Shown here: piece after piece, positions 1 through 64,000 of the stretch | Layout of the letters: each line of letters starts with the position of its first letter | Position numbering within the stretch: position 1 is the stretch's first letter | Origin: Thiomicrorhabdus lithotrophica | GTDB lineage: Bacteria; Pseudomonadota; Gammaproteobacteria; Thiomicrospirales; Thiomicrospiraceae | Direction: 5' to 3' | Assembly: GCF_029201445.1 (NCBI RefSeq) | Contig: NZ_CP102381.1 | Coordinates: 1,984,001 to 2,048,000, forward strand | Length of the DNA stretch: 64,000 nucleotides | Position numbers and translations under genes: made by a program | The notes under the pieces: model-generated | Database searches by the model: none | The model's input: only the letters and a program-made list of their open reading frames with translations | What the model was told of the DNA's origin: nothing

Positions 1-1139
1 TAGAAGACATAGCAGGCCTGGTAACTTTTGCGAAAGATAACCATATCGATTTAGCGATTGTAGGCCCTGAAGTACCTTTAGTTTTAGGAGTGGTTGACGC
101 CTTCAATGAAGCAGGACTTAAATGTTTTGGGCCTACGGCTGGTGCAGCCCAGTTAGAAGGTTCTAAAGCCTTCTCTAAAGACTTCTTAGCAAAACATAAC
201 ATTCCCACTGCTGCGTATGATGTATTTACTGAGATTGAACCGGCTCATGCCTACTTAGAAAAAGTAGGTGTTCCAATTGTTATCAAGGCTGATGGATTAG
301 CGGCTGGTAAAGGCGTCATTCTCGCCGACACCATGCAAGAAGCAAAAGAGGCTGTTTCTGACATGTTGGCTGGAAACAAATTCGGGGACGCAGGTTCTCG
401 TGTAGTTATAGAAGAGTTTTTAGTGGGTGAAGAAGCCAGCTTTATTGTGATGGCAGATGGTAAAAATGTTCTACCAATGGCCACTTCGCAAGATCATAAA
501 GCTCGTAATAATGGTGACACTGGACCAAATACAGGTGGCATGGGGGCTTATACTCCTGCTCCAGTAGTGACACGTGAAATTCATAACCGTATTATGGAAA
601 CCGTGATTTACCCAACTATCGAAGGTATGGCAAAAGATGGTCTTCCGTATACTGGCTTTTTATATGCAGGTGTTATGATTGATAGAAACGGTATTCCAAA
701 GGTTTTAGAGTTCAACTGTCGTTTTGGTGATCCTGAAACTCAGCCAATTATGATGCGTTTGAAATCAGATTTAGCCGCCTTATGTCTCGCGGCTATTGAT
801 GGTAAATTGGATACCGTTACCGCTAAATGGGACTCACGCGCGGCTTTAGGTGTAGTTATGGCCGCAGGCGGGTATCCTGATGCCTATCGTAAAGCAGACG
901 TCATTTCTGGCATAAACGACGCAAATTCTGCTGACCTTAAGGTTTTTCATGCAGGTACAAGCCTGAATGAGAATAATGAAGTCATCACTTCTGGGGGTCG
1001 TGTACTTTGTGTTACCGCTTTAGGTGAAAACGTTACTGCTGCGCAGAAACGTGCCTATGAAGGTGTTGCCAAAGTTAACTGGGATGAAGTTTACTACCGT
1101 ACAGACATCGGTCATAGAGCTGTATCACGTGAAAAATAA
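1..1139 (+). CDS. purD: phosphoribosylamine-glycine ligase (GARS), 5' end outside window
   Basis: PurD makes glycinamide ribonucleotide from phosphoribosylamine, glycine and ATP in cytoplasmic purine synthesis. The reading frame is open from base 3, and the residues before the first possible start (EDIAGLVTFAKDNHIDLAIV, then GPEVPL) already match the PurD N-terminal domain, so the gene enters from the left edge. About 378 residues are visible, against some 425-430 in the family. ATP-grasp features follow: VIKADGLAAGKGV near 65-77 after the internal GTG at 90, SQDHKARNNGDTGPNTGGMG, and LEFNCRFGDPETQ. A CAGGCCTG palindrome lies in the coding sequence at 13-20. A hairpin terminator follows the stop. 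Confidence 0.97.
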   Translation, partial: EDIAGLVTFAKDNHIDLAIVGPEVPLVLGVVDAFNEAGLKCFGPTAGAAQLEGSKAFSKDFLAKHNIPTAAYDVFTEIEPAHAYLEKVGVPIVIKADGLAAGKGVILADTMQEAKEAVSDMLAGNKFGDAGSRVVIEEFLVGEEASFIVMADGKNVLPMATSQDHKARNNGDTGPNTGGMGAYTPAPVVTREIHNRIMETVIYPTIEGMAKDGLPYTGFLYAGVMIDRNGIPKVLEFNCRFGDPETQPIMMRLKSDLAALCLAAIDGKLDTVTAKWDSRAALGVVMAAGGYPDAYRKADVISGINDANSADLKVFHAGTSLNENNEVITSGGRVLCVTALGENVTAAQKRAYEGVAKVNWDEVYYRTDIGHRAVSREK

Positions 1140-1170
1140 AGCTCAGTTACAACTTATGAGTCACTAAATT

Positions 1171-1194
1171 AAAGCACCCTTAGGTGCTTTTTTT
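1171..1194 (+). terminator. Rho-independent terminator after purD
   Basis: Perfect 8-bp stem AAAGCACC / GGTGCTTT with a CTTA loop, followed by a run of T. It lies 31 bases after the purD stop. Confidence 0.9.
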
Positions 1195-1296
1195 ATGTAC
1201 GGAAGTAAGGTATAGTTAAAAAAACGTAATTTTTAATGGATAAACGATAGGAACTGCTCAATGTATATCCCAGGAACCGTCCGTAAGGAGGCTATG

Positions 1297-1572
1297 ATGC
1301 CAATGGATAGCGTACATAATTATTTTGAACGATTAGTCTTTAATGAAATCAACGAAAATTATGCTGATAAATTTGAAGACAACAATGCCTTAGCAGATAT
1401 GGCTTGTATCGCCTTAAATCGCATTGCTCCACGCTACATTCGTTATGATATTGATATGTCTTTTTACATGTCGGCCGATGAACATATCGAAGTAGAACAA
1501 AAGGTTCAAAAAGCAGTTAAGAAAGCCTATAAAAAAGTAAAGCGATTTGAAAACAATCAAGAGAAAGATTAA
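1297..1572 (+). CDS. ComFB-family protein
   Basis: Small acidic, helical protein of 91 residues resembling the late-competence protein ComFB family (VHNYFERLVFNEINENY at the N terminus, then DMACIALNRIAPRYI). The biochemical role of this family is not settled. An upstream in-frame ATG at 1261 exists, but a strong AAGGAGG at 1285-1291 sits five bases before the ATG at 1297, so that start is preferred; ATG 1303 is an alternative. The lysine-rich tail (VKKAYKKVKRFENNQEKD) is predicted helical. The gene stands alone between a terminator and a 300-bp gap, so no partner can be named. The family call rests on sequence resemblance only. Confidence 0.7.
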   Translation: MPMDSVHNYFERLVFNEINENYADKFEDNNALADMACIALNRIAPRYIRYDIDMSFYMSADEHIEVEQKVQKAVKKAYKKVKRFENNQEKD

Positions 1573-1881
1573 CCAACTGTTCTGATATCTTTTGTCCTTT
1601 ATTATTCTAGTTAGCTTAAATACCTTGTTGAGTTAACTAGTTAATCATTTCTTTTTTATGCTAACCCTCTTACGTTTCCAGACATTAGTAATTTCTTTAA
1701 TAAAACAAACTAATAGCATATAAAAATTATCACCCCCTTAACACTGATGACAGTCATCTATACCCATCTTATTTTTGATAAACTTCACTAGCTACTTTAC
1801 TTAGTGCACTCTTTAATTCTAGTCCCTATATAAGCAGCAAAAACAATAATAAATATAATAAAAAGAAACGTGCTACAGACC
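1573..1881. other. AT-rich gap before the ccm operon
   Basis: About 310 bases without a gene or a convincing repeat. It should hold the ccm promoter, but no -35/-10 pair stands out among the many AT-rich stretches. Confidence 0.5.
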
Positions 1882-2499
1882 ATGCTGTTTTCAGCTCACC
1901 AACTTAGCTGTATACGCAGCCACAAGACACTATTTCAAAATGTCTCATTTGAACTATCTCCTGGCCAACTTTTACTAGTTGAGGGTAAGAATGGTGCGGG
2001 TAAAACTTCCCTGCTAAAACTTCTGTCAGGGCTACGCCGTCCTGATTCCGGTGAAGTAAAATGGAATCAAGTTAACATTCTACAAGCCGAATCAGACTTC
2101 CGAACTTACCTTGCCTGGCTAGGGCATCAAAACCCATTGAAAGAAGATCAGACAGCGCTTGAGAATTTAACAATGCTTGGTCATATCCGCCAACGCAATC
2201 AGATCTCGATGATTGAAGCCGTAAAAACCGTACACCTTGGTCATGTTAAACATAAGTTTGTTAAAACCTTTTCTGCCGGCATGAAACGCCGCCTATCTTT
2301 AGCAAGTTTGCTGATTGCTAAAACGCCTTTATGGATTTTAGATGAACCTCAAGCAGCTCTAGATAAAGCTGGCATTACTTTGTTTGAAACTCTTGCGGAA
2401 CAACACTTAAAAAAGGGTGGCATGATTATTATGACTTCTCACCATTCGGTCAACATTGCGCCTGAATACATTCAAACACTCGTTTTAGGGCATGATTAA
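1882..2499 (+). CDS. ccmA: heme exporter ATP-binding protein CcmA
   Basis: ATPase of the CcmABCD complex, which releases holo-CcmE for cytochrome c maturation; cytoplasmic face of the inner membrane. Walker A is VEGKNGAGKTSLLK, the signature region is TFSAGMKRRLSLASLL, and Walker B is LWILDEPQAALDK followed by the switch histidine in MTSHHS. An in-frame GTG at 1870 would add four residues; the ATG at 1882 gives MLFSAHQLSCIRSHKTLF, which lines up with other CcmA N termini, and 205 residues is the usual length. It is the first gene of ccmABCDEFGHI, with only two bases before ccmB. Confidence 0.95.
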   Translation: MLFSAHQLSCIRSHKTLFQNVSFELSPGQLLLVEGKNGAGKTSLLKLLSGLRRPDSGEVKWNQVNILQAESDFRTYLAWLGHQNPLKEDQTALENLTMLGHIRQRNQISMIEAVKTVHLGHVKHKFVKTFSAGMKRRLSLASLLIAKTPLWILDEPQAALDKAGITLFETLAEQHLKKGGMIIMTSHHSVNIAPEYIQTLVLGHD

Positions 2500-2501
2500 G
2501 C

Positions 2502-3170
2502 ATGAACAGTTTTTTAAGCCTCATTAAACGTGATCTAGTTCTTGCCTATCGTGGTAGAGGTGAAGCTTTCAATTCGCTCATCTTTTTTGGTTTAGTTATC
2601 CTTCTCTTTCCTATTGGCATTAGCGCCTCTGAGAAACTGCTTGCCGAAATTGCACCAGGCCTGATATGGATCGCGGCTTTATTAGCCACCATGGTCTCTT
2701 TAGACAATCTATTTAAAGAAGACTTTCAAGATGGCACCCTAGAGCAGTGGGCTGTTAGCCCGCATTCGCTCATCAGCTTTGCCTGGGCAAGATTGCTTTC
2801 TCACTGGATAATCACCTCTGTACCCCTTATTATCATTGCCCCCCTATTTGCCTTGTCGTTAAATTTGCCGCCTGAAGCTATTGGAGTATTAATTCTTTCA
2901 CTACTCCTAGGAACACCGCTATTAACCTTTATTGGTGGTATTGGTGTAGCCCTAACAACTGGTCTAAAAAAGAGCAGTATGTTACTACCTCTTCTGGTTT
3001 TACCATTTTATATTCCTGTACTTATTTTTGGTGCCAGTGCCGTCGATGTTGCTGCAGACGGTTGGTCCGCGGCCGGCCAATTGTATATACTAGCTGGCTT
3101 ATTTGTTTTAGGCATTACTCTTGCCCCATTTGCGGTGGCTACATCCTTAAAGGTCAGTGTTTCACAATGA
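2502..3170 (+). CDS. ccmB: heme exporter membrane protein CcmB
   Basis: Integral membrane partner of CcmA, 222 residues with about six hydrophobic segments (first near 24-45, last near 195-215). The N-terminal LIKRDLVLAYRGRGEAFNSL and the central TLEQWAVSPHSL stretch are characteristic of CcmB. It starts two bases after ccmA and its stop overlaps the ccmC start (ATGA), which suggests translational coupling. A CAGGCCTG palindrome occurs at 2656-2663. Confidence 0.96.
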   Translation: MNSFLSLIKRDLVLAYRGRGEAFNSLIFFGLVILLFPIGISASEKLLAEIAPGLIWIAALLATMVSLDNLFKEDFQDGTLEQWAVSPHSLISFAWARLLSHWIITSVPLIIIAPLFALSLNLPPEAIGVLILSLLLGTPLLTFIGGIGVALTTGLKKSSMLLPLLVLPFYIPVLIFGASAVDVAADGWSAAGQLYILAGLFVLGITLAPFAVATSLKVSVSQ

Positions 3171-3940: not shown

Positions 3941-4088
3941 ATTTTTTAATATGGGTGGTTACGGTTTTTATGTATGGAGCTCTTTTGGCATAACAGCCGT
4001 TGTGGTTTTAGCCAATATTATTGAACCGATATTTCATCACAAAAACGCGTTAAATGAAGCGGGTGATTTCTATAGCGAAGAAAGCTAA
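3933..4088 (+). CDS. ccmD: heme exporter protein CcmD (51 residues)
   Basis: Tiny membrane protein that completes the CcmABC complex and helps release holo-CcmE. Translation from ATG 3933 gives MTEFFNMGGYGFYVWSSFGI and then one hydrophobic segment (TAVVVLANII) and a charged tail ending in EES. The FFNMGGYGFYVWSSFG start is typical of CcmD. It overlaps the end of ccmC by eight bases and lies 44 bases before ccmE. It is short enough to be missed by length-filtered gene finders. Confidence 0.93.
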   Translation: MTEFFNMGGYGFYVWSSFGITAVVVLANIIEPIFHHKNALNEAGDFYSEES

Positions 4089-4132
4089 ATAGTAAAAATA
4101 ATAACAAAAAATAAAAAAAAGAGAAGCGGTCT

Positions 4133-4621: not shown

Positions 4622-6561
4622 TTCCAGAAATTGGCCACTTCTCTCTCATTATCGGCTTAGCTTTTGCATTTGTATTAGCAACCGTTCCTCTTTTTGGTAA
4701 TCACCACAAACACACAGTTTTAATGCAATTAGCTGTTCCTGCTGCCGTGGGTCAGTTTCTGTTTCTCGCTCTCTCTTTTGGCTGCTTACTTTATAGTTTT
4801 ACGATAGATGACTTCTCTGTTAAATACATCGCTAATAATTCGAATACACAGCTTCCTATGATATTCAAGGTCTCTGCTACCTGGGGAGCACATGAAGGCT
4901 CTTTATTATTGTGGGCATGGATTCTGACTGGATGGGCATTAGCCGTCAGTTTATTCAGTAAAACTTTACCTCTGTCATTACAAAGTAAAATGCTCAGTGT
5001 TTTAGGCATGGTAACCATCGGCTTTATTCTTTTTATCCTACTCACTTCAAACCCCTTTGAGCGTTTGCTTGAAATCCCACATGAAGGACGTAGTCTAAAT
5101 CCACTGTTACAAGATATCGGTTTAGCCATTCATCCACCTGTTTTATACATGGGTTATGTCGGTATGGCTGTTACCTTTGCATTTGCTATTGCCGTTCTTT
5201 TAGAAGGCAGGTTTGAGATGGCCTGGGCTAGATGGGCTAAAACCTGGGCTATTGTTGCCTGGGCTTTTTTAACCTTAGGTATCTCATTAGGAAGTTGGTG
5301 GGCATATTACGAACTCGGCTGGGGCGGCTGGTGGTTCTGGGACCCAGTTGAAAATGCCTCATTACTGCCGTGGATTATTGCGACGGCACTTATTCACTCT
5401 CTAAGTATTACCGCCAGCAGAGGCTCTTTTCAATCTTGGACATTATTATTAGCCATACTAGCTTTCTCACTCAGCTTGTTAGGCGTATTCTTAGTCCGTT
5501 CAGGCGTCATTACCTCCGTACATGCATTTGCAACGGATCCAACTCGTGGTATTTATATTCTGGTTTTCTTGGTTGTTGTAGTCGGTGCATCACTCTCTTT
5601 ATATGCCAGTCACGCACACAAAGTGACCCAAAGAAAAGCATTTTCATTAATCTCTAAAGACACCCTTCTTTTACTCAACAATGTCATATTAGTCACGATG
5701 ATGGCAACGGTTTTATTAGGTACACTTTATCCACTGATATTGGACGCATTAGGTGTGGCCAAATTATCCGTAGGCGCGCCTTATTTTAACTCTGTCATGT
5801 TGCCACTAACAGTTCCACTGGCTCTACTTATGGGCTTAGGTTTTGCCACTCACTGGCGAGAAGACAGTAGCAAACGCCTATTCAGTAAATTATGGTTACC
5901 TGCTGTTGCTAGCTTACTGGTTGCCTTTTTAGTTCCTTTATTGCTTCTGCCTGATGTATCAGGCCTGGCAATTTTAGGGTTACTTATGAGTAGCTGGATT
6001 GCTTTTACCGCACTCATTTGGTTATTAAAAGAAAACTCAACAGGCCTGGTAAAACCCAATATGCAAAAATTTGGTTCAGCACTTGCCCACATTGGTTTTG
6101 CCGTAACGCTTACCGGTATCACCATCACATCAATCTACTCTATTGAGAAAGATGTGCGTCTTGAACCTGGACAAAACTATCAAATTAACGAATACCGATT
6201 CCAATTTATTGGCGTTCAACAAAAACAGGTTGATAACTATTTGGCCTCTGAAGGCCACATTAAAGTCTTTGTTGATAACCAACTCATTACGGAGCTCTAT
6301 CCTCAAAAAAGAACTTATATGAGTCAAGTCATGCCAATGACCGAGGCGGGAATTGATGCTGAACTATCACGCGATCTATTTGTCGCATTAGGTGAGAAAT
6401 TAGATGAAACAGCTTGGAGTCTCAGAATTCAATACAAACCTTTTATTCGTTGGATTTGGCTTGGTTCAATCTTAATGGCTATTGGCGGTGTATTAACATT
6501 GTTACAACGAAGAAAAAAAGAAAAACCTGAAAATGCCAATACCCTTGAGGTTAATGCATGA
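4618..6561 (+). CDS. ccmF: cytochrome c heme lyase subunit CcmF
   Basis: Large membrane protein, 647 residues with many membrane helices, that transfers heme from holo-CcmE to apocytochrome together with CcmH. The WWD domain reads GWGGWWFWDPVENASLLPW near residues 235-253, and GAHEGSLLLW and IHPPVLYMGYVG carry the conserved histidine regions. Two CAGGCCTG palindromes lie inside the gene (5960-5967 and 6041-6048). It overlaps ccmE before it and the thioredoxin-like gene after it by four bases each. Confidence 0.97.
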   Translation: MIPEIGHFSLIIGLAFAFVLATVPLFGNHHKHTVLMQLAVPAAVGQFLFLALSFGCLLYSFTIDDFSVKYIANNSNTQLPMIFKVSATWGAHEGSLLLWAWILTGWALAVSLFSKTLPLSLQSKMLSVLGMVTIGFILFILLTSNPFERLLEIPHEGRSLNPLLQDIGLAIHPPVLYMGYVGMAVTFAFAIAVLLEGRFEMAWARWAKTWAIVAWAFLTLGISLGSWWAYYELGWGGWWFWDPVENASLLPWIIATALIHSLSITASRGSFQSWTLLLAILAFSLSLLGVFLVRSGVITSVHAFATDPTRGIYILVFLVVVVGASLSLYASHAHKVTQRKAFSLISKDTLLLLNNVILVTMMATVLLGTLYPLILDALGVAKLSVGAPYFNSVMLPLTVPLALLMGLGFATHWREDSSKRLFSKLWLPAVASLLVAFLVPLLLLPDVSGLAILGLLMSSWIAFTALIWLLKENSTGLVKPNMQKFGSALAHIGFAVTLTGITITSIYSIEKDVRLEPGQNYQINEYRFQFIGVQQKQVDNYLASEGHIKVFVDNQLITELYPQKRTYMSQVMPMTEAGIDAELSRDLFVALGEKLDETAWSLRIQYKPFIRWIWLGSILMAIGGVLTLLQRRKKEKPENANTLEVNA

Positions 6562-7097: not shown

Positions 7098-7102
7098 ACG
7101 AT

Positions 7103-7567: not shown

Positions 7568-7572
7568 TATCT

Positions 7573-8616: not shown

Positions 8617-8636
8617 TATTAGGTTTTTATTAAATA

Positions 8637-8736: not shown

Positions 8737-8789
8737 ACATACTTTCTAAAGTTATATTTAAAACAATAAAATAAAAAAAGAAAACAACG

Positions 8790-21704: not shown

Positions 21705-22319
21705 TTGAGAAGCCTTTTTAATATTTATAGGCCCTAGGTAATTCCTTTTAGGCTTCCCCTCCCTTTCTTTGCTTGCCCAAAGAAAGGAAGCAAAGAAAAT
21801 GCACCCCACTCCATAAATTGGCAAGTTCTAAAACTCATTCACTGAAACTTCAGAACTCGCTTCGCTCAAACAACTGAAGTTTTTAACCGTTCACTTCGTT
21901 AAGAACTTTGCACAATTTATTACAAGGGGAATCAAGGCGTTTTTGCTTAGCTTCATCTATTTAAAATAACTACTTACCTATGCTCATAAAATATGGTCGG
22001 CCACAGGGATTGCCAGGCCTGGTAAAATTTAAAATCATCAACTCAAGATTAAGCATAAGATAGTAATACGGAACTAACGTAGAAAAAGCACCCCTCTGTA
22101 AGAAATCGCCCTTTTACTTAGTGAAGGATGCGGTTAAAGATTCCCATTGTTTGAGCGAAGCCTGCGTAGCGAGTTATGGGAATCTCAGCAGACAAGCTTA
22201 GTAAAATCGGTTTCGTCAGCGGGGTTCGTTTTTTGGTTACTTTTTGCCGAACAGCAAAAAGTAACGGGAAGCCTAATAGACAATTATCAAGGTATATAAA
22301 TATTAAAAGGGCTTCTCAA
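21705..22319. repeat. 615-bp element with about 55-bp imperfect terminal inverted repeats
   Basis: The left end (21705-21756) begins TTGAGAAGCC, then YTTTTAATATTTATA, and ends TAGGCTTCCC; the reverse complement of 22266-22319 reads the same with a diverged middle. Inside are hairpins: TTTCTTTGCTT / AAGCAAAGAAA (21764-21774 with 21788-21798) and the perfect 12-bp GTTACTTTTTGC / GCAAAAAGTAAC (22236-22247 with 22254-22265). A segment TTGTTTGAGCGAAG occurs inverted at about 21870 and 22146. No gene or transposase frame is present. It contains a copy of the shorter intergenic repeat. Confidence 0.75.
21978..22022 (+). repeat. copy of the GGCCACAGGG intergenic repeat ending in CCAGGCCTGGT
   Basis: CTATGCTCATAAA, spacer, GGCCACAGGGATTGCC and directly the palindrome CAGGCCTGGT. 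It lies inside the 615-bp element. Confidence 0.8.
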
Positions 22320-23233: not shown

Positions 23234-23268
23234 AAAAAACGACCAGGCCTGTTAAGACGTTGGTCGCT
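23234..23268 (-). terminator. terminator of lspA, with a palindrome copy in its loop
   Basis: On the minus strand GCGACCA, a loop, TGGTCG and a T run (A run at 23234-23239 on plus). The left arm and loop contain CCAGGCCTG (23244-23251), so the repeated palindrome forms part of the hairpin. Confidence 0.75.
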
Positions 23269-23297: not shown

Positions 23298-23810
23298 TTA
23301 TGAATCAGTTGCTTCCGCTTGTTTTTCTTGTCTTGGTTTTAGAATCAATTCCGAAAGAATTAACAGGCCTGCTCCGATGGTAATGGCAATATCCGCAATA
23401 TTGAAAGTCGCATAGTGCCAAGTGCCTATATAGAAATCGATAAAATCCGTTACACGACCTTCTAAGAATCGATCAATCACATTACCAACCGCGCCACCTA
23501 AAACCAGGTTAATTCCCCAAGTTTCAATGGTTAGTTTATTTGGTAGTTTAGCCAACCAAACAAGCAACACCGCACTGACCACTAAGGCTAAACCTGCAAA
23601 AAACCAACGTTGCCAGCCACCCATATCTGCCAAAAAGCTAAATGCTGCACCGTAGTTATAAGCCAACGTCCAGTTTAGGTTTGGCATAACCGCAACAGGC
23701 TCACCAAACACCAAAGTATCGACTGCCCACATTTTAGTAAGTTGATCAAAAACAATCACTAAAATGGCTAACCACACGGTTTTAATCGCGGTTGAGTTTT
23801 TTTGTGGCAT
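23298..23810 (-). CDS. lspA: lipoprotein signal peptidase
   Basis: Aspartyl protease of the inner membrane cleaving prolipoprotein signal peptides. 170 residues with four helices. Catalytic aspartates are in GGAVGNVIDRFLEGRVTDF: the Asp of NVIDR and the Asp of VTDF. NWTLAYNYGAAF is the other conserved stretch (usually N-x-G-A-A-F). It follows ileS in the standard ribF-ileS-lspA order. A CAGGCCTG site is at 23364. Confidence 0.96.
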   Translation of the reverse strand: MPQKNSTAIKTVWLAILVIVFDQLTKMWAVDTLVFGEPVAVMPNLNWTLAYNYGAAFSFLADMGGWQRWFFAGLALVVSAVLLVWLAKLPNKLTIETWGINLVLGGAVGNVIDRFLEGRVTDFIDFYIGTWHYATFNIADIAITIGAGLLILSELILKPRQEKQAEATDS

Positions 23811-28013: not shown

Positions 28014-28060
28014 ACCAGGCCTGGCATGGCCTGTGGCCGACTATAATTATTAGGCATAGG
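28014..28060 (-). repeat. copy of the GGCCACAGG intergenic repeat joined to CCAGGCCTGG
   Basis: On the minus strand: CCTATGCCTAATAATTATAG, TCGGCCACAGGCCATGCC, then AGGCCTGGT. It lies between ribF and murJ. Confidence 0.75.
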
Positions 28061-32005: not shown

Positions 32006-32127
32006 CTATGCTCACATTGTATTAAAGGCCACAGGGCATGCCACTATGCTCACATTGTATTAAAGGCCACAGAGCATGCCACTATGCTCACAATATACGG
32101 ATAGCCAGAGAATATACCAGGCCTGGT
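32006..32127 (+). repeat. 38-bp tandem repeat, two copies plus a diverged third, ending in ACCAGGCCTGGT
   Basis: Units at 32006-32043 and 32044-32081 differ at one base (CACAGGGCATG against CACAGAGCATG). Each runs CTATGCTCACATTGTATTAA, then AGGCCACAGGGCATGCCA. The third start (32082) keeps CTATGCTCACAA and then diverges until the palindrome at 32116-32127. Lies between the Spy-like gene and the DUF3817 gene. Confidence 0.9.
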
Positions 32128-36444: not shown

Positions 36445-36456
36445 ACCAGGCCTGGT
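36445..36456. repeat. ACCAGGCCTGGT palindrome (holA-proA gap)
   Basis: Full copy, extended to 14 bp (TA at the outer ends), in the 73-base gap between holA and proA. Confidence 0.95.
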
Positions 36457-38083: not shown

Positions 38084-40558
<2,475 letters not shown>

Positions 40559-41189: not shown

Positions 41190-42716
41190 TTAAAACCGCC
41201 CTCTTAAAAAGTAACGTTTTGCTAACAAAAAGCCAAAGTAGGTAAACAGCAAAAACAGTATTGGCATTTTTTTCCATTCTGCATAAAACGTTAAACCTTC
41301 ATAAGGTTGTACTTTACCGCGCAACACACCTTCTTCATAAGCAGGGATTTGCTGCTTAATATTGCCTTTAATATCGACTATGGCGGTATAACCAGTATTG
41401 GTACTTCGGGCAATTTCTCTACCAAGCTCTAAAGCACGCATTTGTACTTCTTGTAACTGCTGCGCGGGTTCAAAAGTACCTGCAAACCAGGCATCGTTAC
41501 TAACTGTAATCAAATACTTAGCTTGTGGCAACTGCGCTGCCAACTCTTCCCCAAATGCCATTTCATAACAAATACTCAATCCAGCATCCTGACCACCTAA
41601 ATTAATAGGTTTTTGATCGGATGGGCCGTGCGTGAAGGTTGCAAACGGAATATCAAACAAGCCACTGACAAACGCAAATGCACTCGTAAAAGGAAAGAAT
41701 TCACTAAAAGGAACTAAATGTTTTTTGTAGTAGCGATCTTCTGGATTATGGACATTAATCAACGCATTATAATAATGTTCAGAATTGGCACCTCCAGCTA
41801 TTACACCGACTAAAATATCGGTATTGAGAAGTTTTGCATCTTTAATAAAGCCTAGTAAAGCGCCCTTTTCAACCACATCATAATAGGCTGGAATGGCGGT
41901 TTCAGGCCAAACAACCACATCCGCATCCATATTTTGTTTAGTTAAACCAATATAAGTTTTTAAGGTTGGATAAAAAGCATTTGGCAGCCACTTTTCTTCT
42001 TGTGGAATATTACCCTGAATTAAAGCGACATCAATCGGTTTAGCTATTGGCTTAACCCACTCAACCTGTTGCAGTAAACCGCCCAGTGACCAAATCAAAC
42101 ACAAAGACATGCTTGCGGCCACCCAGCTCTTTTGTTTAAACAACCATAAAAGTAGGCCTGCTGATATGGCTACCGCCCAACTCACACCCCACACACCAAA
42201 TACCGGGGCAAAGCCATCCAACCAAGTATGTAAATGCGTTGTACCGCTCAATAAGAATGGGAAGCCGCCAAAAATAGTAGAGCGAATTAATTCAATCAAA
42301 ACCCAAACAGCAGGAAATAATAGGGTAAGAACCAGGCCTGGTCGATTTGGATTTTTAAAATAGTGGGCAAGCCAACCGCCAATGGCAACCGACAAAGATA
42401 AGAACAGAACAAAACCGGCCGTAAGAATGACCGCGAAAGGCAACGCAACACCAGAATAAAAATACATGCTTGAAAACAGCCAGCTAACACCTAAGCCAAA
42501 CTGACCAAGTCCAAACCAGAGTCCGATTTTAGCAGCTTCAAAACGGCTTTTAGCATCTAGCCAAAGCATAAACAAACCCGCTATGGCCGCCAGCATAAGC
42601 GGAGACACCTCAAAAGGTGCAAAAGCAAACACACTCATTGCACCGAGTAACAAGGCTAAACCGTGTTTCTTAGCAGGCACAAAGACATTTTTTAGAAAGT
42701 TAAAAACCGATTTCAA
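41190..42716 (-). CDS. lnt: apolipoprotein N-acyltransferase
   Basis: Final step of lipoprotein maturation in the inner membrane. 508 residues: several N-terminal helices, then a nitrilase-fold domain with the Glu of VVWPETAIPAY, the Lys of YKKHLVPFSEFFP and the Cys of LSICYEMAFGE. Start is TTG with AAGGGAAC upstream. A full ACCAGGCCTGGT is at 42331. Follows corC in the standard order. Confidence 0.95.
   Translation of the reverse strand: MKSVFNFLKNVFVPAKKHGLALLLGAMSVFAFAPFEVSPLMLAAIAGLFMLWLDAKSRFEAAKIGLWFGLGQFGLGVSWLFSSMYFYSGVALPFAVILTAGFVLFLSLSVAIGGWLAHYFKNPNRPGLVLTLLFPAVWVLIELIRSTIFGGFPFLLSGTTHLHTWLDGFAPVFGVWGVSWAVAISAGLLLWLFKQKSWVAASMSLCLIWSLGGLLQQVEWVKPIAKPIDVALIQGNIPQEEKWLPNAFYPTLKTYIGLTKQNMDADVVVWPETAIPAYYDVVEKGALLGFIKDAKLLNTDILVGVIAGGANSEHYYNALINVHNPEDRYYKKHLVPFSEFFPFTSAFAFVSGLFDIPFATFTHGPSDQKPINLGGQDAGLSICYEMAFGEELAAQLPQAKYLITVSNDAWFAGTFEPAQQLQEVQMRALELGREIARSTNTGYTAIVDIKGNIKQQIPAYEEGVLRGKVQPYEGLTFYAEWKKMPILFLLFTYFGFLLAKRYFLRGRF
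42331..42342. repeat. ACCAGGCCTGGT palindrome (in lnt)
   Basis: Full copy, coding for RPGLV in a membrane segment of Lnt. Confidence 0.95.
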
Positions 42717-42757: not shown

Positions 42758-43639
42758 TTAAACTCTCTGTTCTTCTAACTCAAGAGCTTGTTCATCGGTA
42801 ATTTCAATCACTTGATCATCAATCGGTTTAACTTCAAAAACTTCCGCTCTGCGCTCGGTGGCTTTTAAAACTCGAATGCACAAACCATGCGTTTCTAGAA
42901 TCTCGCCAGCAATTGGTACATGCCCAAGTTCTGCACCAACAAAACCACCGATAGTTTCTGAATTTTCAGAATCAATATTAACCTGGAAAAACTCATTAAA
43001 CTCTTCTAGGGCTGTTAAAGCTTGAACGGAAAATGCTCCCCCTGCACGCTTTTGAATATTTTCATCTTCTTCAACATCATGTTCGTCTTCAATATCACCA
43101 ACAATCTGCTCTAAAACATCCTCAATAGTTACCAGGCCTGCTAACTCTGCATATTCATCAACCACCAAGGCTAAGTGATTACGGCTGGATTTAAATTCGC
43201 GTAGCAATACATTTAAACGCTTACTTTCAGGTATAAAAATCGCATCACGATAAATTTTTTGCAAGTCTTCTTTTGTATTCAACTCGCCTTTAACCACAGC
43301 TCTTAAAACATCCTTAGCTAACAAGATTCCCACAATTTCTTTATCTTGCATAACAGGATAGCGAGAGTGTGAACTCTCAAGCATGGTTTCTAAAATAGAT
43401 TCTAAAGGTTCAGCCGCGTCAATAATTTCAATCTGTAAACGAGGAATCATTACATCACGTACACGTGCCTCAGAAACATCCAAGACACCTTCAATCATTA
43501 ACAATGCATCTGCATCAATCAACCCTTGTGATTCTGCATCTTGTAAAACGGTTACTAGCTCTTCTCGACTCTCCGGTTCATCTGAAAATACTTTTCCAAG
43601 ACGCTCTAACCACGAAGAGCCGCTACTACTGTCACTCAT
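42758..43639 (-). CDS. ybeX: CorC/YbeX family CBS-domain protein
   Basis: 293 residues, cytosolic: two CBS domains (VRDVMIPRLQIEIID and HLALVVDEYAELAGLVTIED) and a C-terminal CorC_HlyC domain. Relatives are linked to Mg/Co efflux and ribosome maturation. No membrane part. A CAGGCCTG site (43133) encodes LAGLVT within the second CBS domain. Confidence 0.93.
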   Translation of the reverse strand: MSDSSSGSSWLERLGKVFSDEPESREELVTVLQDAESQGLIDADALLMIEGVLDVSEARVRDVMIPRLQIEIIDAAEPLESILETMLESSHSRYPVMQDKEIVGILLAKDVLRAVVKGELNTKEDLQKIYRDAIFIPESKRLNVLLREFKSSRNHLALVVDEYAELAGLVTIEDVLEQIVGDIEDEHDVEEDENIQKRAGGAFSVQALTALEEFNEFFQVNIDSENSETIGGFVGAELGHVPIAGEILETHGLCIRVLKATERRAEVFEVKPIDDQVIEITDEQALELEEQRV

Positions 43640-43713: not shown

Positions 43714-44187
43714 TCATTGCTCACTATATGGATTGGCATAACCTAGGTTTTGCATAATCTCAATTTCGATGCCTTCCATCTCTTCGGCATCATCTTCCTC
43801 TATATGGTCATAGCCTTGTAAATGCAAGGTGCCGTGAATAATCATATGTGCCCAATGTGCTTCTAATGATTTATTTTGCTCTTGGGCTTCCTTGGCAACG
43901 ATCTCTGCACATATCACCAAATCACCTAAATACGGAAGTTCCTCACCAATATCTACCAGGCCTGGTGGTTGCTCAAACTCAAACGATAAAACATTGGTTG
44001 GCTTATCTTTATCACGGTAATCAGCATTAAGTTGCTGACTTTCTTGCTGGTCTACAATGCGAATCGTCATCTCAACTGGCTCAAAACAACGTGGTTCAAG
44101 CACACTAGCATGCACCCATTTCTGGCACTGTTCCATGGTTGGAATAGCTTGCTCGTCGATTCCCCACTGCAAATCAATATCTATCAT
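43714..44187 (-). CDS. ybeY: endoribonuclease YbeY
   Basis: Metal-dependent RNase for rRNA 3' end maturation and quality control. 157 residues; metal motif [11 protein letters not shown] with three histidines. [18 protein letters not shown] contains the sequence coded by a full ACCAGGCCTGGT (43955-43966); the extra PPGLV stretch is in a variable loop. Confidence 0.95.
43955..43966. repeat. ACCAGGCCTGGT palindrome (in ybeY)
   Basis: Full copy encoding PPGLV after the conserved VLSFEF motif. Confidence 0.95.
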
Positions 44188-46898: not shown

Positions 46899-46914
46899 TT
46901 ACCAGGCCTGGTAA
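46899..46914. repeat. ACCAGGCCTGGT palindrome, extended to 16 bp
   Basis: TTACCAGGCCTGGTAA between miaB and the prepilin gene, in a 183-base gap with no other feature. Confidence 0.95.
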
Positions 46915-48378: not shown

Positions 48379-49524
48379 TTAACTTACCAGGCCTGGTAAT
48401 GTGACTAAAAACTTAAATTCTTTAATGGATTGTTCAAAACTTATTTGTCCATCAAACTGTTTTAACAACTCTCGTGCTAGAAACAAGCCTAAACCCATAC
48501 CACTTTCGCTAGTGGTCCAAAAGGGTTCAAATAAACGCTCAGAGACCATTGCATTCTGTAGACCATAAAGCTGACCAATTATTTCTACCTGAACCATCTC
48601 TCCATTAGCCGCACTATTAATAACAATTTGAACGGGCTCTTTAGAGGATGGGTGGTCATTAAAGTTGCCTAAAATATTTTTAAACACCTCTAGCAAGAGT
48701 GGACGAGACAAATTCACAGAAGCACTACCCTTAATCTTTGAATCAAGGCCATACATTGCGACCACCTCTTGGATGATTGAGCGTATATCTATATAACTAC
48801 TTTCATACATCTCAGTAATTGGATTTTGCATATGCTGAACGGTTTTTCTCGCTCTTTTGGCCATCACAGGCAAGCTGTCATGCAGACGGTCGACTAAACG
48901 TATTTTGCCGATATCATTAGGCACTTGTTTAACTTGGTCACTGAGTAATTGAATAAATTGGGCAATATTTTTTATTTCGTGCTGAACGTACATTTGATAA
49001 CGTTCTAACCGTTTTTGAGAGGTTAGGATTTCCGCTTCTTTAACTACCAAATCTTGTTCAAGAATATTAATAAAGGTTTTAACCACTAAACTTGAAAGAC
49101 TTTCTGGCCCAGCCGCCTTACGAGTTAGAAACAACAATATTTCAAAAGACATGTCCTCTCTAAACACTTTGAAATGTGCTCTGCGCCCTGATATTTTACG
49201 TTTAGCCCCTAGCGTGACTTTACGCCTTTCCCCAAACCACTCAATATTCGCTTGAATTTGCACACCACCAACCGATTCTAAAACAGGCCACGCTTGGTAA
49301 AAAAAGTTTAAAGCATCTTGCTCAACTTCTTGGTTAATTGCATACAACCGAGAAATCGCACTACCCAATCGAGTTGATTTAAAACGAATATAAAACACAA
49401 GCCCAAAAAGAAATAGACCAAAGACAACGAGTGCCAACCACCCCCAATGAACCAGGGTCAGTTTAATATCAACTGGCACTAAATCTATAAAATCCAGACT
49501 TTCTTTAAGCGTGACTAAATCCAT
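48379..49524 (-). CDS. membrane sensor histidine kinase
   Basis: 381 residues. One N-terminal helix (about 25-47), a linker with no recognised sensor domain, H-box YVQHEIKNIAQFIQLL with His182, and an ATPase domain ending GMGLGLFLARELL. It starts on the last base of the response regulator stop (TAATG), so the two are coupled. Only one membrane helix is seen and no periplasmic domain, so the signal may be sensed through the membrane or a partner. The last codons contain a full ACCAGGCCTGGT (PGLVS at the C terminus). Confidence 0.9.
   Translation of the reverse strand: MDLVTLKESLDFIDLVPVDIKLTLVHWGWLALVVFGLFLFGLVFYIRFKSTRLGSAISRLYAINQEVEQDALNFFYQAWPVLESVGGVQIQANIEWFGERRKVTLGAKRKISGRRAHFKVFREDMSFEILLFLTRKAAGPESLSSLVVKTFINILEQDLVVKEAEILTSQKRLERYQMYVQHEIKNIAQFIQLLSDQVKQVPNDIGKIRLVDRLHDSLPVMAKRARKTVQHMQNPITEMYESSYIDIRSIIQEVVAMYGLDSKIKGSASVNLSRPLLLEVFKNILGNFNDHPSSKEPVQIVINSAANGEMVQVEIIGQLYGLQNAMVSERLFEPFWTTSESGMGLGLFLARELLKQFDGQISFEQSIKEFKFLVTLPGLVS
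48386..48397. repeat. ACCAGGCCTGGT palindrome at the 3' end of the kinase gene
   Basis: Extended to 16 bp, TTACCAGGCCTGGTAA. It encodes LPGLV just before the stop. Confidence 0.95.
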
Positions 49525-56116: not shown

Positions 56117-56445
56117 TTGAAAAGTCCTTAAATTAGTTAAAACTGCCTGCGCTTTGCAGGCTTGTGTTGCACTATATTGAATAACATTACCTAGCGCAAC
56201 CCTCTTTGTTAAAAAAAGCAACAAAGATTTCCTGTGTTGTTTTTTTGCAACACTTATTCCAGTACAACCCCAAATAAACAACTAATAACATGATAAAACC
56301 AACCAGGCCTGGTTAGTTTATTTTCATTATATCTAATTCAAACCTTAATCTAATCGTTACATCCTCAATCTTACACAGTCTATTAACCGCACCTTTATAC
56401 CTTTGAACCCACTCCCAGCCATTGCACATCTTAACAATCAGACAT
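56117..56445. other. porin upstream region
   Basis: About 330 bases. Contains the hairpin GCCTGC / GCAGGC (56145-56161), which is likely in the porin 5' leader, and a full ACCAGGCCTGGT (56302-56313). No clear promoter. Confidence 0.5.
56302..56313. repeat. ACCAGGCCTGGT palindrome (porin-rpsI gap)
   Basis: Full copy extended to 14 bp (AACCAGGCCTGGTT) between the porin promoter region and the rpsI terminator. Confidence 0.95.
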
Positions 56446-59909: not shown

Positions 59910-61010
59910 ATGTTCAAAAATATTCGTAAAAAAACAGCAGTAAACCTCATAACAGGCTCTCTAGGAGCTGGTAAAACGACCCTAGTACGAAATTTTATTG
60001 AACAGAAGCCCCAAAATGAAACATGGGCCATATTGGTCAATGAATTTGGCGCCATTGGAATAGATGGCCCTATATTGGCTAGCCAAAACAGTATTAGCGT
60101 ATCGCAAATCCCTGGCGGCTGCATTTGTTGCTCAGCACAAAATGAGCTTAAAGATGCGATTGAACAAATATTAGAACAATATACGCCTGACAGGTTATTT
60201 ATTGAGCCAACTGGCCTTGGAGAGCCAGATACCTTAGTTGACTTACTGCAAAGCCAATTCTTTCAACAACGCTTTGAAATACAAACCGTGTTTGCCGTAT
60301 TAGATGCTTCTACAACGAAAATAACGGATTTTGAACAATACACCATCATGCAAAACTTATTAAATATGGCAGATGCGATTATCTTCAATAAAAGCAGTTT
60401 GGCAACAAAAGAACAAATCCGCATTTTAGAAAACTATGCTATTAACCTTTACCCTCCTAAAAGCGCGGTGATAGTGACCAACCAGGCTGAAGTCGATGTT
60501 AACTTACTCAACCTCAACCACACCCATAAACAAACTAACATTACAAAAGAACTTGCCCAAATAAGCCACCAAGAAGGTAAAAGCACGCCACAAAACTCTA
60601 AAGCCTATCACATAGATAAAACAGAAAACTTAATACAGCCGGGCAACCCTAGCTTCAATTCAAAAATTGAGTTACCAGGCCTGGTAACTCGCGAATTACA
60701 AAATCAACTCAATACCTTATCTGTTGGCTGGATTTTTGATGATTCCGTTGAATTTGACTGGTCTGCTCTATTTTCTCAATTTAAGACTTTTAATGCATTA
60801 AATAAAGATCAACAGCCATTAAGAGCTAAAGGCGTATTTAAAGTCGGCAAACCTTGGATGCTATTTCAGTGGGTTAGCAACCAAGCGACACGAGAATTTA
60901 TTGCTTATCGTCGAGATTCCAGAGTTGAGCTTTTACTTTCACAAGATAGTCAGTTTGATTTTGAAGCATTCGAAATTTCGCTTAAAAATTGCATAAAACC
61001 ATCAAGCTAA
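59910..61010 (+). CDS. CobW-family G3E GTPase (metal chaperone type)
   Basis: 366 residues. Walker A GSLGAGKTTLVRNF, the metal site GGCICCSA (CxCC), and FIEPTGLGEPDT. The guanine-specificity NKxD is degenerate, as IIFNKSSL. A variable linker (about 200-255) carries HTHKQ and the stretch KIELPGLVTREL, coded by the longest palindrome copy of the window. The C-terminal CobW_C-like domain is present but short. Metal and client unknown. Confidence 0.85.
   Translation: MFKNIRKKTAVNLITGSLGAGKTTLVRNFIEQKPQNETWAILVNEFGAIGIDGPILASQNSISVSQIPGGCICCSAQNELKDAIEQILEQYTPDRLFIEPTGLGEPDTLVDLLQSQFFQQRFEIQTVFAVLDASTTKITDFEQYTIMQNLLNMADAIIFNKSSLATKEQIRILENYAINLYPPKSAVIVTNQAEVDVNLLNLNHTHKQTNITKELAQISHQEGKSTPQNSKAYHIDKTENLIQPGNPSFNSKIELPGLVTRELQNQLNTLSVGWIFDDSVEFDWSALFSQFKTFNALNKDQQPLRAKGVFKVGKPWMLFQWVSNQATREFIAYRRDSRVELLLSQDSQFDFEAFEISLKNCIKPSS
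60669..60690. repeat. ACCAGGCCTGGT palindrome, extended to a perfect 22-bp palindrome
   Basis: Full copy 60674-60685; the flanks GAGTT and AACTC keep the symmetry. Inside the CobW gene, in its variable linker. Confidence 0.95.
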
Positions 61011-61516: not shown

Positions 61517-63784
61517 ATGACCAGTCAAAATATTCAAGTTAGCAAACGAAATGGAACCAAAGAACCTATTGATTTAGAAAAAATCCATAGGGTTATTACA
61601 TGGGCGGCTGAAGGCTTAGAAAATGTTTCCGTTTCAGAAGTGGAACTGCGTTCTCATATCCAGTTTTATGATGGCATTACCACCTCGGATATTCATGAGA
61701 CGATTGTCAAATCAGCAGCGGATTTAATCTCTGAAAACGCACCAGATTACCAACATCTTTCGGCTCGTTTGGCCATTTTCCATCTGCGTAAAAAAGCGTT
61801 TGACCGTTTTACGCCTCCTGCGCTTTTTGAACACATCAATAAAATGGTTCGTAGTGGTCACTATGACAACCAAATTTTAGAAGACTTTTCTAAAGCGGAT
61901 ATTGATGAACTTGATGAATATATTGATCATAGCCGTGACTTAACTTTCAGTTATGCGGCAGTTAAGCAGCTAGAAGGTAAGTACCTGGTTCAAAACCGTG
62001 TTACCGGTAAAATTTACGAGAGTCCGCAGTTTATCTACATGCTGATTCCAATGTGCTTATTTGCTCATTACCCCGCTGAAACTCGTTTGCAGTACATTAA
62101 AGACTTCTACGATGCTTCATCACAATTTAAACTGTCTTTGCCAACACCAATTATGTCTGGTGTTCGTACTCCAACACGCCAGTTCAGTTCTTGTGTTTTA
62201 ATTGAATGTGGAGACTCTTTAGACTCTATCAATGCGACCTCCTCATCTATTGTTAAATATGTTTCTCAACGCGCCGGAATCGGTGTGAATGTAGGTCGTA
62301 TTCGTGCACTAGGTAGTGAAATCCGTGGTGGTGAAGCCTACCACACAGGCATGATTCCTTTTATTAAGCACTTCCAAACTGCAGTTAAATCTTGTTCGCA
62401 AGGTGGTGTTCGTGGTGGAGCAGCCACTCTGTTCTACCCAATTTGGCACTTAGAAGTTGAGTCTCTGATAGTTCTTAAAAACAATCGTGGTGTTGAAGAG
62501 AACCGTGCTCGTCACTTAGATTATGGTGTTCAAATCAATAAAATGATGTATCAACGTATGATTGAAGGTGGAGATATCTCCTTATTCAGCCCATCAGATG
62601 CACCAGGCCTGTATGACGCTTTCTTTGAAGATCAAGAAGAGTTTGAACGTCTGTATAAAATCTATGAAGCGGACGACAGCATTCGTAAAAAGAAAGTAAA
62701 AGCGATTGATCTATTTACTCAAATTGCGCAAGAACGTGCACAAACAGGACGAATCTACATTCAAAACGTAGACCACTGTAATACACATAGTCCATTTGAC
62801 CCAAGTAAAGCACCAGTTCATCAATCTAACTTATGTTTAGAAATTGCTTTACCGACCAAACCTTTGAATTCAGTAGAAGATCCAAATGGTGAAATCGCCC
62901 TTTGTACTCTGTCTGCATTTAATTTAGGTGCTATTGAAAACTTAGAAGAGCTAGAGTCACTATCAAATCTAATCGTACGTGCTTTAGATAGCCTACTAGA
63001 TTACCAAGACTACCCAGTTGAAGCGGCACGCCACTCAAGTATGGGGCGTCGTACTTTGGGTGTAGGTGTGACTAACATGGCTTACTACCTAGCTAAAAAC
63101 AAAACCAAATACTCTGATGGCTCAGCCAATGGCCTGATGCACCGTACTTTTGAAGCGATTCAATATAACTTATTAAAAGCTTCAAATACATTGGCGAAAG
63201 AACAAGGCGCATGTGATTACTTTGAAGATACCACTTACTCACAAGGTATTTTGCCAATTGATACCTATAAAAAAGAGTTAGACGAAGTCTGTAAGGAACC
63301 ACTGCATTTAGATTGGGAAGCGTTACGTTCTGAGATAAAAGAACACGGCTTACGTAACTCAACCTTAACCGCATTAATGCCTTGTGAGACGTCTTCACAG
63401 ATTACTAACTCAACCAATGGTATTGAACCACCACGTGGTTATGTATCGGTTAAAGCGTCTAAAGACGGGATTCTAAAACAAGTTGTCCCTGGCTTTAAAG
63501 AACACCGTGATGACTATGAATTACTCTGGCATATTCCAGATAACAAAGGTTATTTACAGTTAGTGGGAATCATGCAGAAGTTTGTTGACCAAGCGATTTC
63601 ATCAAACACAAACTACGATCCAGCACGATTTAACGAAGATAAAGTTCCAATTAAATTGGTTCTTCAAGATCTGCTTTATGCTTATAAAATGGGATTAAAA
63701 ACGCTGTATTACCACAACACACGTGATGGGGCGGATGACAACCAGGAAGATGATGGTTGCGCAGGTGGTGCTTGCAAGCTTTAA
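61517..63784 (+). CDS. nrdA: ribonucleoside-diphosphate reductase class Ia, alpha subunit
   Basis: Reduces ribonucleotides to deoxyribonucleotides with NrdB, which is not in the window. 755 residues: ATP-cone at the N terminus (RNGTKEPIDLEKIHRVITWA), FSSCVLIECGD with a catalytic cysteine, QSNLCLEIALPTK with NxCxE, TLSALMP-like stretch (NSTLTALMPCETSS), and the C-terminal tail GCAGGACKL that carries the redox cysteines. TTG 61502 is in frame, but ATG 61517 gives the E. coli-like start. A CAGGCCTG site (62604) encodes APGLYDAFF. Confidence 0.97.
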   Translation: MTSQNIQVSKRNGTKEPIDLEKIHRVITWAAEGLENVSVSEVELRSHIQFYDGITTSDIHETIVKSAADLISENAPDYQHLSARLAIFHLRKKAFDRFTPPALFEHINKMVRSGHYDNQILEDFSKADIDELDEYIDHSRDLTFSYAAVKQLEGKYLVQNRVTGKIYESPQFIYMLIPMCLFAHYPAETRLQYIKDFYDASSQFKLSLPTPIMSGVRTPTRQFSSCVLIECGDSLDSINATSSSIVKYVSQRAGIGVNVGRIRALGSEIRGGEAYHTGMIPFIKHFQTAVKSCSQGGVRGGAATLFYPIWHLEVESLIVLKNNRGVEENRARHLDYGVQINKMMYQRMIEGGDISLFSPSDAPGLYDAFFEDQEEFERLYKIYEADDSIRKKKVKAIDLFTQIAQERAQTGRIYIQNVDHCNTHSPFDPSKAPVHQSNLCLEIALPTKPLNSVEDPNGEIALCTLSAFNLGAIENLEELESLSNLIVRALDSLLDYQDYPVEAARHSSMGRRTLGVGVTNMAYYLAKNKTKYSDGSANGLMHRTFEAIQYNLLKASNTLAKEQGACDYFEDTTYSQGILPIDTYKKELDEVCKEPLHLDWEALRSEIKEHGLRNSTLTALMPCETSSQITNSTNGIEPPRGYVSVKASKDGILKQVVPGFKEHRDDYELLWHIPDNKGYLQLVGIMQKFVDQAISSNTNYDPARFNEDKVPIKLVLQDLLYAYKMGLKTLYYHNTRDGADDNQEDDGCAGGACKL

Positions 63785-63790
63785 ACAGGC

Positions 63791-63873
63791 CTTTTTGCGC
63801 AAACTCTGCGTTGGTTGACGGTTCGTTTACACAAGTAAACTTCACCATAAACCGCCTTGATTTTAAGCAAAAA
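63791..63873. repeat. long nested-hairpin repeat, copy C (after nrdA)
   Basis: TTTTTGC / GCAAAAA outside, GGTT / AACC and core GTTTACACAAGTAAAC. On the minus strand CAAGGCG and AACGCAG flank the core as in copies A and B. It begins seven bases after nrdA. Confidence 0.82.
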
Positions 63874-63913
63874 TTCTCTGTTTAAAGAAATAGAACATTC
63901 ATCTATACAAGAA

Positions 63914-63944
63914 AGCGATTGAAGCAATTCAATCGTTTTTTTGT
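63914..63944 (+). terminator. Rho-independent terminator after nrdA
   Basis: CGATTGAA / TTCAATCG stem, GCAA loop, seven T. Confidence 0.88.
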
Positions 63945-63964
63945 TTTTAGAGATAAAAAACATC

Positions 63965-63976
63965 ACCAGGCCTGGT
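63965..63976. repeat. ACCAGGCCTGGT palindrome (right edge)
   Basis: Full copy in the gap after the nrdA terminator. Confidence 0.95.
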
Positions 63977-64000
63977 AACAATTAGATATTGATTAAAATA

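Follow-up and report, generated by a model that had tools for sequence, protein, structure and literature searches.

Uptake sequences are named for two bacterial families, the Pasteurellaceae and the Neisseriaceae, in the accessible parts of PMC7811141 and PMC5031613, the former of which places them mainly in mucosal environments. According to the available text of the same source, the uptake signal sequence (USS) of Haemophilus influenzae has a crucial central GCGG and weaker flanks (PMC7811141), and in the Hin-type USS a second A/T segment is centred 12 positions further (PMC1626085, in part). The DNA uptake sequences (DUS) of the Neisseriaceae, as described in the accessible portion of PMC3630211, form dialects that share the short core CTG and follow phylogeny, inverted pairs being associated with terminators and five genomes lacking an obvious DUS. 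A different iterated word, the cyanobacterial HIP1, has alternates in some species and is tied by the author to cognate methyltransferases (PMC4390886, accessible sections). Here we describe a palindromic 12-mer, ACCAGGCCTGGT, with an eight-base core, CAGGCCTG, found scattered through 64,000 nucleotides (the window) of the sulfur oxidiser Thiomicrorhabdus lithotrophica, at positions 1984001-2048000 of the single 2,516,205 bp contig of its genome (G000). HIP1 is the closest known palindrome. The properties reported below suggest that the word is rather likely an uptake-type sequence, part of a DUS/USS-like system that would have dialects, be palindromic in this lineage and represent a third bacterial family. 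In the properties examined at sequence level it behaves as uptake sequences do, except for its palindromic dialect, and class membership is not claimed.

The initial annotation of the window had noticed the scattered palindrome by eye, and this observation is confirmed: all 28 core coordinates that it listed were exact on recount, and its 11 full 12-mers were recovered. Dinucleotide shuffles of the window contain on average 0.53 cores (maximum 2, n = 100 shuffles) and no 12-mer, while an order-2 Markov model predicts 0.68 cores. The 28 sites divide into 11 full 12-mers, 12 cores with one full half and 5 cores only. The excess extends to the entire genome, where 454 copies of the 12-mer occur in 2,516,205 bp against 0 of the reversed control word. 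A 464 kb sample of G000, comprising the window and 20 further stretches of 20 kb, holds 167 cores where an order-3 model predicts 6.8, and 76 full 12-mers where an order-2 model predicts 0.035; extrapolation from the 167 cores gives ~900 in the whole genome. DUS and USS are likewise present in hundreds to thousands of copies, far above Markov expectation, and the extrapolated ~900 cores compare with 1,465 in H. influenzae (PMC7811141, part of the text) and are fewer than the 2,245-5,918 given for Neisseriaceae DUS dialects in the accessible part of PMC3630211.

Sites lie both in genes and between them, with a higher density between genes, as is the case for DUS and USS. The division of the window sites into 20 genic and 8 intergenic was reproduced, the site at 32118, in a 2 kb gap, being uncertain, and the intergenic over-representation proposed from the window holds in the 464 kb sample, where crude calls of open reading frames (ORFs) of at least 90 aa give an 8.9-fold higher density for the 12-mer (43 in 59 kb intergenic, 33 in 405 kb genic) and a 3.2-fold higher density for the core. 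Among the 41 of 43 intergenic 12-mers lying between two called ORFs, 13 are in convergent gaps (1.7 per kb), 22 in tandem gaps (0.65) and 6 in divergent gaps (0.41). Within tandem gaps 16 of 22 sites are nearer the upstream stop, and the median distance from that stop is 51 bp; by position, this is consistent with the bias to gene 3' ends and terminators of DUS and USS. Genic cores use all three frames and read mainly xGL (xCA GGC CTG, 75 of 114), followed by QA[W/C] (32) and RP (7). Along the chromosome, 5-11 cores occur in each of 22 of the 23 sampled 20 kb blocks and 1 in the remaining block (L200, G000:C1:160001-180000), most of which is taken up by a giant repeat-protein gene at 7-16126. 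Since, this block apart, density differs little along the chromosome, no origin, terminus or segregation clustering is seen across the 23 blocks. In the giant gene of L200 a single open frame spans 4336 aa, and the same repeats recur in further upstream frames.

Among 62 genomes of the family, the 12-mer is present in 84-718 copies in 27 (those with at least 80 copies are termed rich), in 1-38 copies in 14 and in none in 21, and the reversed control is absent from all 62; a count at the level of the order covers the same 62 genomes. The genus groups appear to correspond to Thiomicrorhabdus (g1), Hydrogenovibrio (g3) and, more tentatively and from locus L005, Thiomicrospira (g6); the 14.7 kb of L005, a Thiomicrospira contig, include 11 cores and 7 full 12-mers. 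By PhoH, Thiomicrorhabdus marina and Hydrogenovibrio sp. UBA650 are the closest named relatives of G000, at 81 % each. The 12-mer is missing from 75 outgroup loci (L006-L080, 1.26 Mb, nearly all gammaproteobacterial by title), in which cores number 36 where 87 are expected; the excess is therefore a property of the Thiomicrospira/Hydrogenovibrio/Thiomicrorhabdus family and not of general gammaproteobacterial composition. The initial annotation held that loss of the excess in close relatives would speak against it. Several relatives do lack the 12-mer, and the same-genus single-contig genomes G029, G030 and G027 have 0-1 copies, but some of the relatives without it carry another dialect. In a LeuS tree with 47 taxa, genomes carrying the 12-mer are found across g6, several Hydrogenovibrio, G061 and Thiomicrorhabdus, with asymmetric dialects and losses nested within this range. 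In this tree G045, G037, G058, G056, G060 and G054 are represented by short loci, and the word-free labels of G045 and G037 and the word-rich labels of G058, G060 and G054 derive from 12-mer counts alone. Read by eye, without formal reconstruction, the tree suggests that the palindrome may be the ancestral form. The LeuS match itself is split at about residue 575, with ~45 extra residues, in many family genomes (e.g. G047, G051, G027, G030, G007 and G061), which are absent from G000, its nearest relatives and g6.

The site has a strict core and weaker A/T-rich flanks, a property of DUS and USS that is shared in particular with the crucial core and weaker flanks of the H. influenzae USS. Besides the 76 perfect 12-mers, the 464 kb of G000 contain 49 one-base variants with an outer mismatch and 1 with a core mismatch; the corresponding numbers are 28 and 4 in other Thiomicrorhabdus with the palindrome, 15 and 0 in Hydrogenovibrio with the palindrome and, less sharply, 21 and 7 in g6, whereas nine word-free genomes contain 0 perfect and 1 one-off 12-mer in 579 kb. 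For the 166 cores with enough flank, both halves are full in 76, one in 62 and none in 28. Outward of the 12-mer the preferred bases in G000 are T/A, T/C, any, A and A, so that the site comprises the strict CAGGCCTG, looser AC/GT and soft A/T positions (AANYTACCAGGCCTGGTARNTT). The two CCWGG sites that the initial annotation had described as overlapping instead abut; only 13 of the 28 sites keep both unbroken, and no base of the palindrome varies more than the outer C of CCAGG/CCWGG. A/T content beside the word was examined for a period of 10-11.5 bp, and p values uncorrected for the six sets were 0.013 for G000, 0.004 for other Thiomicrorhabdus, 0.004 for g6, 0.001 for G014, 0.055 for G007/8/13 and 0.086 for G027, thus below 0.05 in 4 of 6; the strongest period in G000 is 8.0, not 10-11.

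Some of the family genomes with no or few 12-mers were searched for other iterated words, mostly in samples of 20-140 kb. Several iterate different words that share parts with the palindrome, namely ACCGGCCGGT, AACAGGCCGGGT, CCCARCCTGGYAGATTTT and CCACCCCTGGCGATTTT. In 120 kb of G027, ACCGGCCGGT occurs 47 times, 44 of these with flanks that are distinct, where 0.2 are expected, while G023 has the asymmetric AACAGGCCGGGT and G024, G046 and G047 retain the core with mixed outer bases. The dialect of G007 is CCCAGCCTGGYAGATTTT, that of G008 and G013 is CCCAACCTGGYAGATTTT, and that of G014 is CCACCCCTGGCGATTTT, its CCACCCCTGGCGATTTTT being followed by a second T tract about ten bases on. Counted over 60 whole genomes, CCCARCCTGGYAGATTT is present 278, 274 and 331 times in G007, G008 and G013, respectively, once in each of three others and never in 54, its reversed control being absent from all 60. 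No comparable iterated word was seen in 80-140 kb each of G029, G030, G051 and G050, nor in 8-20 kb each of G042, G025, G028, G040, G044, G017 and G004. The asymmetric words combine a core with a T tract adjoining on one side and a further A/T peak 10-13 bases on, which is clear in G014 and weak in G007/8/13. In this they resemble the Pasteurellaceae USS (AAGTGCGGT, ACAAGCGGT), which have a core, a 3' A/T segment and a second A/T segment and, as far as the accessible sources describe them, a mutational origin and subclade-specific types, like the dialects here. From the dialect words and the LeuS tree, the latter read by eye, the dialects are distributed along the phylogeny as in known uptake systems. 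They share with Neisseriaceae DUS a short common core (here GGCC or CCTGG parts), a phylogenetic distribution, the existence of word-free members and, by position, a link to terminators and inverted pairs, and with HIP1 and its alternates, in the sections available, the replacement of a highly iterated palindrome by other words in some relatives. In contrast to Pasteurellaceae USS, the sequence is unrelated, one dialect is a perfect palindrome and the host is a sulfur oxidiser; Neisseriaceae DUS differ in their unrelated sequence, in the palindromic dialect here and in the ComP-like receptor, which was not found in the searches here; and, unlike HIP1, the word has no consistent methyltransferase (two families examined), some of its dialects are non-palindromic with a T tract, and it is sparser.

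The window sites are given below by window coordinates, and no strand is assigned to any of them. Gene names are a reading of the translations rather than a database result, genes were called as the longest ORF, and the gene list omits ORFs shorter than 150 aa.

13..20, unstranded: core and one full half (CAGGCCTGGT), in purD.
2656..2663, unstranded: core and one full half, in a ccmB-like gene.
5960..5967, unstranded: core only, in a ccmF-like gene.
6041..6048, unstranded: core and one full half, in a ccmF-like gene.
12324..12331, unstranded: core only, in clpB.
13377..13384, unstranded: core only, in clpB.
14429..14436, unstranded: core and one full half, in a YdcF-like gene.
16805..16816, unstranded: full 12-mer, in rlmKL.
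18064..18075, unstranded: full 12-mer, in rlmKL.
22014..22021, unstranded: core and one full half, intergenic.
23244..23251, unstranded: core and one full half, intergenic, 54 bp past the lspA 3' end.
23364..23371, unstranded: core only, in lspA.
24130..24137, unstranded: core only, in ileS.
28016..28023, unstranded: core and one full half, intergenic, in the ribF/murJ gap.
28760..28767, unstranded: core and one full half, in murJ.
32116..32127, unstranded: full 12-mer, in the gap between ORFs (of at least 150 aa only) ending at 31491 and starting at 33564.
36445..36456, unstranded: full 12-mer, intergenic, just past the holA 3' end.
37076..37083, unstranded: core and one full half, in holA; the orthologous place keeps the site in many word-carrying relatives.
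38618..38625, unstranded: core and one full half, in leuS.
42331..42342, unstranded: full 12-mer, in lnt.
43133..43140, unstranded: core and one full half, in corC; CAGGCCGG in G023 and also in word-free G051.
43955..43966, unstranded: full 12-mer, in ybeY; other dialects here in relatives.
46901..46912, unstranded: full 12-mer inside TTACCAGGCCTGGTAA, intergenic, 32 bp past a prepilin gene 3' end.
48386..48397, unstranded: full 12-mer inside TTACCAGGCCTGGTAA, at the very 3' end of a histidine kinase gene.
56302..56313, unstranded: full 12-mer, intergenic, 23 bp upstream of a porin ORF as listed (true start uncertain).
60674..60685, unstranded: full 12-mer inside the 18-bp palindrome GTTACCAGGCCTGGTAAC, in a CobW-like gene.
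62604..62611, unstranded: core and one full half, in nrdA.
63965..63976, unstranded: full 12-mer, intergenic, ~180 bp after nrdA.

In most relatives the coding sites can be aligned free of gaps. At the ybeY site the full ACCAGGCCTGGT is present in G000, G026, G031, G049, G032 and G021, AGCAGGCCTGGT in G024/G046/G047, AACAGGCCGGGT, its own dialect, in G023 and ACCAAACCAGGG in word-free G029, with no gaps. Over an orthologous 20 kb, five of the six aligned G007 sites carry the G008 word in place (chance 0.02), and G008 and G013, which use the same word, have kept 5/5 sites. The G007/G008 pattern is accounted for by a recogniser whose preference shifts by one base, the sites then changing, whereas repeat insertion does not explain it. 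For core words, in-place coincidences were found in G000/G023 (2/4), G031/G023 (2/6), G021/G023 (1/5), G024/G023 (2/6), G000/G024 (3/6, same core), G021/G027 (1/5), G015/G014 (1/4) and G052/G000 (1/4). In G000/G023 the full G023 word occurs at ybeY only, and the corC word CAGGCCGG is found in word-free G051 as well. No switch was seen in G061/G007, G061/G008 and G061/G000 (0/1 each), and G006/G007, G006/G014 and G007/G014 offered no aligned sites. Point mutation in place rather than insertion, as described for DUS and USS, is thus observed here, with dialect switches in some pairs and none in others.

As an uptake-type sequence, the palindrome would be a short genomic tag that is recognised by a DNA receptor on the cell surface, part of the competence machinery, and this recognition would lead cells to import preferentially DNA from their own kind. 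Recombination of imported fragments would spread the tag that they carry, while point substitutions in near-matching sequences would create new copies. CCTGGTARNTT, the right half of the palindrome, aligns with CCTGGYAGATTTT of the asymmetric Hydrogenovibrio word, and for this reason the recognised unit may be one half-site with its A/T tract, the palindrome then representing two such units head to head. The cells would be competent, the word would bias uptake, and the receptor would probably be a pilus component. Going one step further, we lean slightly towards a third uptake-sequence system, independently evolved and ancestral to the Thiomicrospira/Hydrogenovibrio/Thiomicrorhabdus family, in which an ancestral palindrome readable from either side later gave rise to asymmetric dialects or was lost. 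ComEC matches were found in 55 of 60 family genomes, G050, G036, G035, G019 and G020 having none, and the ComEC open frame of G023 is shorter (594 aa) than most. PilB-like and PilT-like ATPases are present in 8 of 8 genomes tested, and a second, PilU-like ATPase lies beside PilT in G000, G029, G030, G027, G006 and G008; these ATPases are putatively named from size and arrangement.

The initial annotation was right in describing an iterated palindrome with an intergenic excess; the mechanisms that it proposed are not supported. It had proposed a nucleoid or segregation protein site, and binding by an abundant dimeric protein, either chromosome-organising or of the nucleoid, would fit a two-fold symmetric site of ~22 bp with a strict core and soft flanks, at fairly even density around the sampled chromosome. 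Short palindromes bound by chromosome proteins, such as matS, SlmA sites and parS, number tens and cluster by position, whereas the word here runs to hundreds, far above such figures, and is spread over the sampled chromosome, with no positional cluster seen. The word is also easily lost, G029, G030 and G027 having 0-1 copies within the same genus, and the asymmetric sister words of Hydrogenovibrio and G023 misfit a strictly dimeric protein, so that this explanation is unlikely. The proposal of a HIP1-like word holds as a description but not as regards a cognate methyltransferase in word-rich genomes. A palindrome that a DNA methyltransferase and methylation-linked repair create or preserve, as Elhai proposed for cyanobacteria, would account for the perfect symmetry and for a strict core with outer-base deviations as in HIP1 (PMC4390886, accessible part), and G000 has two PF00145 genes. 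Of the 27 rich genomes, however, PF00145 (C5-methyltransferase) matches 9 and is missing from 18, PF01555 matches 11 and is missing from 16, and 11 match neither family. Two of these 11, G048 and G057, are incomplete assemblies, and the methyltransferase matches of G032, G009 and G056 lie below the curated cut-off; the search covered PF00145 and PF01555 and not PF02384 or PF02086. A one-sided T tract in the asymmetric dialects is unexpected for a type II methyltransferase site. Because 11 of 27 rich genomes lack both families, a methylation cause is disfavoured and appears more doubtful still than a nucleoid protein; the methylation-linked site of the initial annotation fails in addition in that CCWGG is not the conserved unit.

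A transcription-termination element, that is a small hairpin with a T tract that was later iterated, would explain the bias to gene 3' ends with its convergent-gap density and short distance to the upstream stop. Such a role is very improbable as the main one, since 20 of 28 window sites are genic, most of the hairpins predicted are weak (over up to 32 nt, 26 of 28 do not reach -9 kcal/mol) and base-by-base dialect switching receives no reason; neisserial uptake sequences are, moreover, terminator-associated themselves (accessible part of PMC3630211). The least credible alternative is a mutational or codon-usage artefact, such as Dcm with very-short-patch repair at CCWGG or a common peptide. 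It could draw on the two CCWGG copies in the palindrome and on the dominant genic reading xCA GGC CTG (75/114), but CCWGG does not rank among the top 15 enriched 5-mers in the window, intergenic density exceeds genic density and all three frames are used. An artefact of this kind is already refuted by these counts, and a Dcm/CCWGG product in particular was rejected from the variable outer C and the 13 of 28 sites with both copies intact.

Several observations weigh against an uptake-type sequence. No sequence-specific receptor, such as a ComP-, ComN- or FimT-like minor pilin, was found by GspH/FimT and prepilin searches. GspH/FimT (PF12019) was rejected as receptor with matches in 3 of 60 genomes, all word-free, as was the prepilin cluster of the window, whose prepilins are acidic; the search expression returned no prepilins from the corresponding stretch of the word-rich genomes G006, G052 and G061. 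PilP was detected in 1 of 60 genomes, not G000, although 14 control genomes also yielded none, which leaves the sensitivity uncertain. ComEC is unmatched in G035, a rich genome that is incomplete, while word-free G029, G030, G051, G042, G025 and G028 retain ComEC and word-free G029 and G030 retain the pilus motors, and thus word loss is not explained. No in-place switch was seen in G000/G027, G015/G007 or G015/G008 (0/4 each), and the ybeY site encodes a PGL peptide, so that constraint on the protein may preserve some of the word there. Evenness of spacing beyond block counts is weak: even core spacing was rejected (gap variance p 0.42; gaps shorter than 300 bp, nominal p 0.046), the evenness of cores over 20 kb blocks has p 0.083, or 0.004 after post hoc removal of one block, and the 12-mer tests gave p 0.093 and 0.087. 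The cited known uptake sequences are not palindromic, unlike the G000 word. Literature searches, with most subscription journals outside their coverage, returned no report of an uptake sequence in Thiomicrospira or an uptake signal in Hydrogenovibrio, and broader searches none of such an uptake word among the matches listed; in the accessible part of the Hydrogenovibrio genome paper PMC6501319, competence is not mentioned and 'palindromic' is used for CRISPR only.

Among the pilin loci met in these searches, the window encodes at 46935-54893, adjoining miaB, a row of five acidic prepilin-like proteins with a histidine kinase and a response regulator in their midst; the ORF at 53925-54893 beside them has no Pfam match, and prepilins also lie beside miaB in several relatives. 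In G051 the GspH/FimT match belongs to four consecutive prepilin genes, which resemble a pseudopilin cluster of a type II secretion system. Judged from the starts and order of ORFs, loci L267-L268 (G000:C1:2324001-2358000) contain an MSHA-like pilus cluster and, after it, a type II secretion cluster. The MSHA-like pilin cluster (G000, 2.33-2.35 Mb) was discarded as a correlate of the word, being seen in G000, G026 and G031 and not in seven others compared. Other repeats were also encountered. The octamer CACCTAAA, scattered through the window (22 on both strands, 3.7 expected; 77 in the 464 kb, 34 expected), shows a mild excess and has no relation to the palindrome. In IMG/VR, TACCAGGCCTGGTA is present once in each of 36 listed viral stretches (L289-L324), and a plasmid search with one intergenic site and its flanks (141 bases) gave no match. 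Words such as GTGGATTGAA and CCCGCGGG in L123-L124 of G021, in 37-40 copies, suggest a CRISPR array, and L077 of Thiotrichales bacterium BB31 carries at 9151-18560 four paired, MITE-like inverted repeats, AAGACTGCCAGTCCTT...AAGGACTGGCAGTCTT, with common flanks and a variant base in one copy.

If the palindrome is an uptake-type sequence, a third family, composed of sulfur oxidisers, would bear on the question of why uptake tags evolve. The palindromic and asymmetric dialects, together with sites that switch in place, could serve to test whether a tag drives its own spread through biased uptake. These autotrophs would then be expected to be transformable with DNA that carries the right word, and the family would hold a record of how a self-recognition code changes.

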